From Methanobacteriota archaeon (GTDB taxonomy: Archaea > Thermoplasmatota > Poseidoniia > Poseidoniales > Poseidoniaceae): 42,157 nucleotides of DNA. Shown in pieces: positions 10,441-12,688 of the stretch (its first letter is position 1; every line of letters begins with the position of its first letter). A program made the translations under genes and the position numbers. The notes beneath the pieces were generated by a model, which saw only the letters and a program-made list of their open reading frames with translations, did not search any database and was not told the DNA's origin. The stretch is from contig PAJN01000040.1 in assembly GCA_002710205.1 (NCBI GenBank), positions 29,688-71,844 of the forward strand, written 5' to 3'.

Positions 10441-11736
10441 TCAATTGCTGCAATACTTCATTGAAATGCCTAATTCTGCCATTTTTTGGATCAGCGAGTC
10501 TGAAGGATCGGTAATCCAAGCTTCATTAGTTTGCAAATTCAAGCCGAATGGAATTATTTCACCGTATAGAATTGTTGTGATATCTGAACCATCGACTAGT
10601 GCAGCACACCTCTCAATCGCACTTCCTTCACTCCATGGGTTGGTCTGACAAGCCATCGCTAAATTTAGATCAATCTCGCTATTGTCAGTTCTAGCGACAC
10701 TGATTTTTGCAAGGTTCAGTGTGTTCGTAGTGCATCCAAGAAATCGCAATGAATCGATATAATCGATTGGCATTGATTCGATATTACATCCTGAAAATAC
10801 AACCTTGTTTGCGTTGAACCTTTTGACTACATCCAGCAAATTGTCTTGTTGTTCAGGGTCTCTACAAACTGCATGATATTCAACTAATCCCATCCCCTTT
10901 AATGGGCTAATTTTAGGTGAAGTTCCGCAGCATCGACAATCAACGTACAACACTCGGTGGACGCCTCCTTCTCCATCTAATAGTTCACACATTCCATGAC
11001 CTATTGGCATTGGTGCACGGAATGATTTCCACCCAATCAATTCAACCACCCCAGATGCCATTAGTGTTAGAGTGAATAGTAGACCTGGTAGGTTTACTGG
11101 AATAACTAACCAAAGTAGCATCAACATGATTCCATGAATTCGTAAGCGCCACCATCCGGCATTTCCTGACCATAGTAGTTTTGACATGCCAGCAATTGTT
11201 ACAACACTCATTGCAGCTAATACCAATACCATTGCCCATGCAATCGATATTGAAATCCTAAGCATTTCTGCTGCATCGTATCTTCCAATCAAACCTGTGT
11301 CGTTGTTGAATGAATGGCCGTATGAGTATAGCCATGGTAAAAATTCAGTCATTGTAAAAATTAGTGAACTGAAAGCCAAGATCCACATCATCATCATCCA
11401 AATTATGAGGGCTCTCCTTTCACTTGGTAAAAGCCCTGGTTTTGCAAAGGAATAGGCTTGTTGTATGGCGAAAGGCATTGCAGTTAGCAGTCCAATTATT
11501 GCTGCACTTAACCAACGTGTACCTGCCCATTCATCTGGTGAAAATATGTTGACACAAGAGTATTCACATGGATCTAATTTTCCTAGTAAATAGTGTAGAA
11601 TTTCGTCGATCGATAAGGACCATATGCCTGTAAGTATGATTACTAGCATTATCACTGCAGTGAGCCTTTTAGATAATTCATCAAGGTGGGATTGAACACT
11701 ACTCCTGCCGTCACTTGACAGGTGTAGGTCATTCAT
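10441..11736 (-). CDS. tatC: TatC translocase subunit with a Cys-rich HdrA-like C-terminal domain
   Basis: Numbering is from the ATG at 11736, four bases after the upstream stop; an ATG at 11772 is possible. Residues 14-240 are TatC: SVQSHLDELSKRL at the start, several membrane segments, and FAKPGLLPSERR with the conserved glutamate (E106) that recognises twin-arginine signals. Instead of ending there, the 431-residue protein continues for about 180 soluble residues with eight cysteines (C267, C269, C270, C291, C317, C335, C363, C377). The layout VDCRCCG, then HAVCRDPEQQ, then VVFSGCNIESM resembles the N-terminal domain of heterodisulfide reductase subunit HdrA (CxCG, CSxxGQ, ASCSP). The extension lies on the cytoplasmic side. 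TatC itself is about 240 residues, so this is a fusion; the HdrA likeness is by eye. Confidence 0.8.
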   Translation of the reverse strand: MNDLHLSSDGRSSVQSHLDELSKRLTAVIMLVIILTGIWSLSIDEILHYLLGKLDPCEYSCVNIFSPDEWAGTRWLSAAIIGLLTAMPFAIQQAYSFAKPGLLPSERRALIIWMMMMWILAFSSLIFTMTEFLPWLYSYGHSFNNDTGLIGRYDAAEMLRISISIAWAMVLVLAAMSVVTIAGMSKLLWSGNAGWWRLRIHGIMLMLLWLVIPVNLPGLLFTLTLMASGVVELIGWKSFRAPMPIGHGMCELLDGEGGVHRVLYVDCRCCGTSPKISPLKGMGLVEYHAVCRDPEQQDNLLDVVKRFNANKVVFSGCNIESMPIDYIDSLRFLGCTTNTLNLAKISVARTDNSEIDLNLAMACQTNPWSEGSAIERCAALVDGSDITTILYGEIIPFGLNLQTNEAWITDPSDSLIQKMAELGISMKYCSN

Positions 11737-11740
11737 GGTA

Positions 11741-12688
11741 TCAGACCAAGTCCATATCTTGCTTTTCGGCACGTGCTTGAACTACTGTTCGGTAAACTCC
11801 GAAAATTCCCCATAAGAGACACATTCCGATTACCAATGTGTATCCCCACGGAAGTGCTGTATCGATAGCCCAACCAAATCCAATAGCTAAACCAAGAGTT
11901 AGAACTCCTCTACGGATGCCTTGAGGTATTGCTAAACTCATGTCCAAATGAGGAGGTCCACCAGCAAATCTTCGTTCATAGAATTCTCCTTGGATAACCG
12001 CTGCTACAATGAGGATGGATAGTGTTGTCCAGAAGTATAAGTTTCCTTGCTCAAGGTATCCACTTGCAATATCTGCTTGTCTTTCAGCTTCAATTTCCTC
12101 TGCAGATTTTTGGCCGAATAATGAGTCATAATCACCAACGCTGATGGTTCGCAAACTTGCATCTGCATCAGCAGTTGCTGTTCCTGGAGCACTTACTGTG
12201 AATGTAAGAATCGTCCAGTGGTCACCAGCATCAGGTGCGCCACTCTCATCTACAATGTTTCCTGCCAATGAGAAGTGTACATCACCCACATCCGACTCTG
12301 GTGCAGTCCATGTGATTTCCCAGTCATTTCCAACACTGTCATGAGATAGCGCCCCTCCAGAATCCTTGACATACTTCGAGCCATCTGAGGGAGTAAAGTT
12401 GCCATCTGCATAGTCCCAGATCATGTAACCGCCAACTGCATATGTTGCATGTGCTAGACTGATTGTGAGGTTGTATGTTTCTCCGGTTTCGTAGACTCTT
12501 GGGACTCCACTAATTGATAGAATTACCTCGTTAGATGGAGAACCTCCTGCTCCGTGGCAAGAACATCCTTCTTCAGGAATGATGCGATCATTATGCATCC
12601 AAGGTGGCCCCTGTGAGTTGCCAAAGGCCGGAGCAGCTAGCATTAGAGCCAAAGTTGCAACCAGCAGGACAGAGAACCTACGGGACAT
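11741..12688 (-). CDS. Secreted CxCH (possible haem-binding) protein with three C-terminal membrane helices
   Basis: A 315-residue protein with a signal peptide (residues 1-24), then EEGCSCHGAGG (39-49), a single CxCH site one residue shorter than the usual cytochrome c CxxCH. A beta-sandwich domain follows (about 55-170) that resembles Reeler or choice-of-anchor domains; it contains YETGETYNLTISL and a tryptophan-rich stretch. The C-terminal third has three predicted membrane segments (about 218-236, 258-280 and 283-303). It is four bases upstream of tatC, so the two are probably co-transcribed. The CcmE-like gene elsewhere in the window makes haem attachment imaginable but not shown. Alternatively the Cys pair binds a metal or forms a disulphide. 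Confidence 0.55.
   Translation of the reverse strand: MSRRFSVLLVATLALMLAAPAFGNSQGPPWMHNDRIIPEEGCSCHGAGGSPSNEVILSISGVPRVYETGETYNLTISLAHATYAVGGYMIWDYADGNFTPSDGSKYVKDSGGALSHDSVGNDWEITWTAPESDVGDVHFSLAGNIVDESGAPDAGDHWTILTFTVSAPGTATADADASLRTISVGDYDSLFGQKSAEEIEAERQADIASGYLEQGNLYFWTTLSILIVAAVIQGEFYERRFAGGPPHLDMSLAIPQGIRRGVLTLGLAIGFGWAIDTALPWGYTLVIGMCLLWGIFGVYRTVVQARAEKQDMDLV

Follow-up and report, generated by a model that had tools for sequence, protein, structure and literature searches.

A TatC with an added domain resembling the N-terminal domain of HdrA in the archaeal order Poseidoniales

What does a cysteine-rich domain do on the end of TatC, a subunit of the protein export machinery? The question is raised by a gene in the stretch of DNA analyzed here (the window, 42,157 nucleotides), which belongs to contig 40 of a genome of 1.67 Mb that is 78% complete and is a member of the order Poseidoniales (Marine Group II). 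A preliminary description made from the sequence alone had read the frame at 10441-11736 as a TatC that continues for about 180 residues beyond its usual end. We confirm both the frame, which lies on the minus strand, and the overrun.

The fusion gene and its TatC part

10441..11736, minus strand: TatC2-HdrAN fusion gene, 431 aa, ATG start, stop codon at 10441-10443
11017..11736, minus strand: TatC part, residues 1-240 (PF00902 at 58.4 bits, profile match to TatC structures, hydropathy)
11419..11448, minus strand: FAKPGLLPSE (residues 97-106), which by alignment holds the counterparts of E. coli F94 and E103, for docking of the twin-arginine signal
11554..11568, minus strand: CX3C pair, residues 57-61, in the first extracytoplasmic loop; near-invariant in the window's family and absent in the sister family

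An in-frame GTG upstream of the ATG would give an alternative form of 443 aa; we favor the ATG since the start MNDLHLSSD is kept in close relatives, and all residue numbers below refer to the 431-aa form. The fusion is not an assembly or frame artefact, since a fusion query matched in 129 of the 146 genomes of the window's family and unbroken frames of the same build are present in both families. A survey of related genomes, named as a check in the preliminary description, found the fusion conserved in both families of Poseidoniales, and the domain profile likewise detects members in the sister family (f2). In some genomes, apparent frames of about 780 aa were considered as longer fusions and rejected, as the retrieved loci show frames of 413-439 aa.

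The match of the TatC part to Pfam PF00902 lies above the gathering cut-off (58.4 vs 25.1 bits), the fusion falls below the NCBIfam tatC equivalog cut-off (45.8 vs 132.7), and a profile search with the TatC part retrieves the solved E. coli and Aquifex TatC structures. Judged by these scores, the fusion's TatC is a divergent member of the Pfam family and not an NCBIfam tatC equivalog. By analogy with TatC, it would cross the membrane in six segments. Its likeness to the Pfam family and to the E. coli and Aquifex proteins extends to the HLDEL start, the P85/F94/E103 signal-peptide site and the six-helix layout, whereas the fusion differs from the E. coli and Aquifex TatCs in not keeping E170 and D211 and in bearing a 180-residue cytoplasmic cysteine domain. 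In the topology of E. coli TatC, the N and C termini are both inside. Since the C terminus is inside in this topology, the added domain would be cytoplasmic, on the side where signal peptides dock.

The CX3C pair of the TatC part is a possible disulfide or metal site. We also considered whether it acts with the cytoplasmic cysteines and rejected this, because in the sister family the domain occurs though the pair is missing, and the pair is still present in most of the members that lack the cysteines.

The added domain and its cysteines

10681..10989, minus strand: HdrA-N-like core domain, residues 250-352 (profile, profile-profile, AlphaFold and Foldseek)
10444..10680, minus strand: C-terminal extension of the domain, residues 353-431 (alignments and AlphaFold model)

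The preliminary description had guessed that the added part resembles the N-terminal domain of the heterodisulfide reductase HdrA. When a profile of the domain was searched against 293 genomes of the phylum, only three matches were found outside the order, all of them HdrA N-terminal domains (E 1.8e-4 to 6.8e-4) that align across the second half of the core domain. Comparison by hhalign with 32 HdrA N-termini gave p = 2.1e-4 for the whole domain and p = 2.1e-5 (probability 77%) for the core domain, with all four cysteines (CxC ... C ... C) in register, while the controls gave p values of 0.11 (the rest of HdrA) and 0.047 (MvhD). Two AlphaFold models of the domain had pLDDT values of 91 and 88. 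The preliminary description had also proposed a structure-prediction search of the C-terminal part; with the core model, the four best Foldseek matches in the PDB were HdrA chains (8rvy from Methanothermobacter; 5odi, 5odc and 5odh from Methanothermococcus), with probability 1.00, TM 0.62-0.63, rmsd 3.4-4.8 Å and E 2.5e-3 to 5.9e-3, none of them below 1e-3. Single-sequence searches of the domain in Pfam, NCBIfam and the PDB found no match at all, a profile search of the PDB did not find HdrA, and family scans run member by member reached HdrA only at chance level (E 0.16-0.17). The three positive lines are moderate singly, and jointly they make it highly likely that the domain is related to the HdrA N-terminal domain; the original guess thus gains a structural match and a profile match with the cysteines aligned.

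An MvhD/FlpD identity was also considered and rejected, with hhalign p values of 0.026 and 0.047 (probability 1-2%) compared to 2.1e-5 for HdrA-N. The C ... GC segment of that family aligns weakly with the fusion's domain, but MvhD/FlpD starts with CNWC, not CxC. Most of the C-terminal extension is lacking in the sister family, and in the majority of cysteine-less members it is shortened.

With the N-terminal Fe-S domain of HdrA from methanogens and their relatives, the added domain shares the order and spacing logic of the cysteines (CxC, C, C) and a strand-loop-helix fold. Unlike in HdrA, it is joined to a membrane protein, no FAD or ferredoxin domains come after it, and its family matches are too weak for Pfam or NCBIfam calls. 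Since Pfam and NCBIfam searches found the FAD/thioredoxin-reductase and ferredoxin domains to be absent from the 431-aa protein, the fusion is not an HdrA. The N-terminal domain of HdrA holds an iron-sulfur cluster, one ligand of which (Cys197) comes from the partner HdrA (PMC9012536). For the fusion, no such partner cysteine is known, and a search for an HdrA-type partner protein in Poseidoniales gave weak generic matches only; any cluster would therefore have to be bound by the four cysteines of the domain itself or by another partner, in an environment that would differ from that in HdrA.

10930..10938, minus strand: CxC, Cys267 and Cys269, predicted cluster ligands (invariant in the 68-sequence alignment; 126-gene tally)
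10864..10866, minus strand: Cys291, predicted cluster ligand (68-sequence alignment and 126-gene tally)
10786..10788, minus strand: Cys317 of the GC motif, predicted cluster ligand (68-sequence alignment and 126-gene tally)

The motifs quoted in the preliminary description are present (CRCCG, CRDPEQQ and SGCNIESM), but its count of eight cysteines needs correction to ten within residues 250-431 (250, 267, 269, 270, 291, 317, 335, 363, 377 and 429). Conservation, which it had proposed to check, holds for four of the ten (267, 269, 291 and 317) and not for the other six. In an alignment of 68 core domains from both families, whose members were picked for intact cysteines, the only invariant positions are C267, C269, C291, C317 and G316, with identity to the copy in the window falling as low as about 17-20%. 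Among 126 unselected family genes with the domain, 108 have all four cysteines. Losses of 0, 1, 2, 3 and 4 cysteines were seen in 108, 2, 4, 5 and 7 genes, compared to 80.6, 38.3, 6.6, 0.5 and 0.0 expected from independent loss at the same per-site rates, and the intact or broken state changed at least 9 times on a tree of the TatC part. Most of the genes with broken cysteines are shorter (368-391 aa vs a median of 441), and such genes still keep H17, P88, F97 and E106 of the TatC part, save two unread (X) residues. Since the cysteines disappear together while the TatC part remains strictly conserved, the four behave like a single site and the domain like an accessory. The predicted secondary structure would place them right behind strands 1, 2 and 3, along the same edge of the sheet, which fits a single site. 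Together, conservation and loss point to Cys267, Cys269, Cys291 and Cys317 as one cofactor site, probably for a [4Fe-4S] cluster.

Joint loss fits any metal, however, and four-cysteine sites often bind zinc. The four cysteines might accordingly hold zinc or another structural metal, with the domain serving as a rigid scaffold that stabilizes a receptor of two TatC types (TatC1 and TatC2, see below) or recruits TatA or a chaperone, with no redox chemistry. The lineage lives in the surface ocean and is largely aerobic, so that exposed clusters would be at risk. On the other hand, sequence and fold indicate HdrA-N, an Fe-S holder (PMC9012536), and the arrangement of a CxC with the other two cysteines distant at strand ends copies that of HdrA; we consider the zinc scaffold unlikely. 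It is also conceivable that an ancestral fusion is now drifting as a decaying or neutral leftover with little function, as the domain is lost or broken in several lineages and overall identity falls to about 17-20%. This is very improbable when set against the four cysteines and the GC-motif glycine, which are invariant in the 68 members selected for intact cysteines, the 108 of 126 unselected genes that keep all four, and the confident fold prediction.

In the sister family (L142-L152), the domain often has a fifth cysteine (CxCxGxCP), which also occurs in some genera of the window's family.

The two TatCs of Poseidoniales

Most genomes of the order encode two TatCs, the fusion type (TatC2) and an ordinary type (TatC1; loci L001-L003 and L155-L183). 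Compared to E. coli TatC, the 79 TatC2 sequences from both families keep P85 (79/79), F94 (78/79, with one X) and E103 (79/79), while E170 is found in none of them and D211 in 7/79. The 32 TatC1 sequences, in contrast, keep P172, P209, P210, D211 and E227, have Q in place of E170, and possess neither F94 nor E103. In E. coli TatC, binding of the signal peptide requires F94 and E103; E170 belongs to the concave face, and E170A inactivates transport (PMC10092561). The complementary loss of these sites (F94/E103 vs E170/D211) suggests a split, heteromeric Tat receptor. Such loss in two paralogs amounts to a dissection of TatC by nature, and the TatC1/TatC2 pair lets one ask which TatC surfaces have to share a subunit and which a neighbor can supply.

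Elsewhere in the phylum a single TatC is the usual state, and the ones examined visually have both motif sets (e.g., L274 and L283). A sister group within the class (f3) already has two TatC types, with a TatC2 that lacks the added domain (L294 and L295). The likely history is that a single TatC was duplicated, with division of labor, in the class, that an HdrA-N domain was fused to the signal-reading copy in Poseidoniales, and that the domain was then repeatedly lost. TatA was found in 22 of 26 relatives. Haloarchaeal TatCt, which has two TatC modules within one protein, is similar in being an archaeal Tat receptor with two unequal TatC units; the Poseidoniales units differ in being separate genes with complementary residues, one of which has an HdrA-type domain.

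One genome (G000, contigs C1 and C35) has three TatC1 copies (L001, L002 and L003) compared to one in its congeners, probably due to contamination or strain mixture in the MAG. Several TatCs of other Thermoplasmatota (L274, L279, L281, L283 and L287) have long frames with an N-terminal extension resembling an exported domain plus a membrane anchor, and a further TatC (L278) has a 654-aa frame whose long C-terminal repeat domain may be a beta-propeller.

Loss of the domain, gene neighborhood and proposed role

Several genera of f2 have a second TatC of just 241-264 aa, and their genomes yielded no separate copy of the HdrA-N-like domain. The preliminary description had held that relatives with the two parts as separate genes would speak against its reading; we found short TatCs with no stand-alone domain, and since both hold in these genera, the domain was lost there. 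Since such loss has occurred several times, the domain is unnecessary for export as such, and since TatC2 was kept each time, the domain would be a regulator and not an essential part.

We propose that the four cysteines hold a [4Fe-4S] cluster, as the corresponding domain of HdrA does, and that TatC2 and TatC1 operate together in one receptor. The cluster domain would lie on the cytoplasmic side, next to where signal peptides dock, and its redox or occupancy state would there modulate the docking of Tat cargo, so that redox or iron state would be sensed. A redox check on cofactor-loaded Tat cargo, the role suggested in the preliminary description, is conceivable. Taken as a whole, this explanation, a TatC2 whose cytoplasmic HdrA-N homologue tunes export within a TatC1-TatC2 split receptor, seems to us evenly balanced between right and wrong. 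In a stricter form, TatC1 and TatC2 would be an obligate heteromer in which the Fe-S domain of the signal-reading half opens or closes the twin-arginine docking site by redox or iron state, making a redox-gated translocase; we offer this tentatively and regard it as rather doubtful.

11741..12688, minus strand: choice-of-anchor V protein, co-directional and upstream of the fusion with a 4-nt gap (NF041895, 77.5 bits, cut-off 42)

The gene order malate dehydrogenase, pntA, pntC-like, pntB, choice-of-anchor V, tatC2, M6 protease prevails in both families wherever the contigs extend far enough (57 loci), and the choice-of-anchor V gene adjoins the fusion in 57/57. We considered this neighborhood as a functional clue and set it aside, as it does not vary within the order, regardless of whether the domain is intact.

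The Tat pathway exports folded cofactor proteins, and the domain may instead be an electron-transfer or cluster-delivery module that serves such cargo (e.g., a Rieske protein) just before export, as a maturation partner and not a gate. Consistent with this, the HdrA N-terminal domain is an electron-transfer module (PMC9012536), and redox genes lie close to the fusion (transhydrogenase pntAB, cytochrome b561 and CcmE). However, no partner oxidoreductase was found tied to the presence of the domain, and the neighborhood is weak evidence since all of the order shares it, including members with a degenerate domain; we judge a delivery module to be quite improbable.

Under the preferred reading, in which the domain tunes export, the export of folded proteins may be tied to the redox or iron state of the cell. 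If the cluster is real, Tat export would have a built-in sensor. Few archaea of the surface ocean rival this lineage in abundance. Within the limited coverage of the open full-text literature, we found no report of a TatC with an HdrA-type or any Fe-S domain. The choice-of-anchor V protein has a GCxCH motif that does not vary and that is shorter by one residue than CxxCH, the usual haem site.
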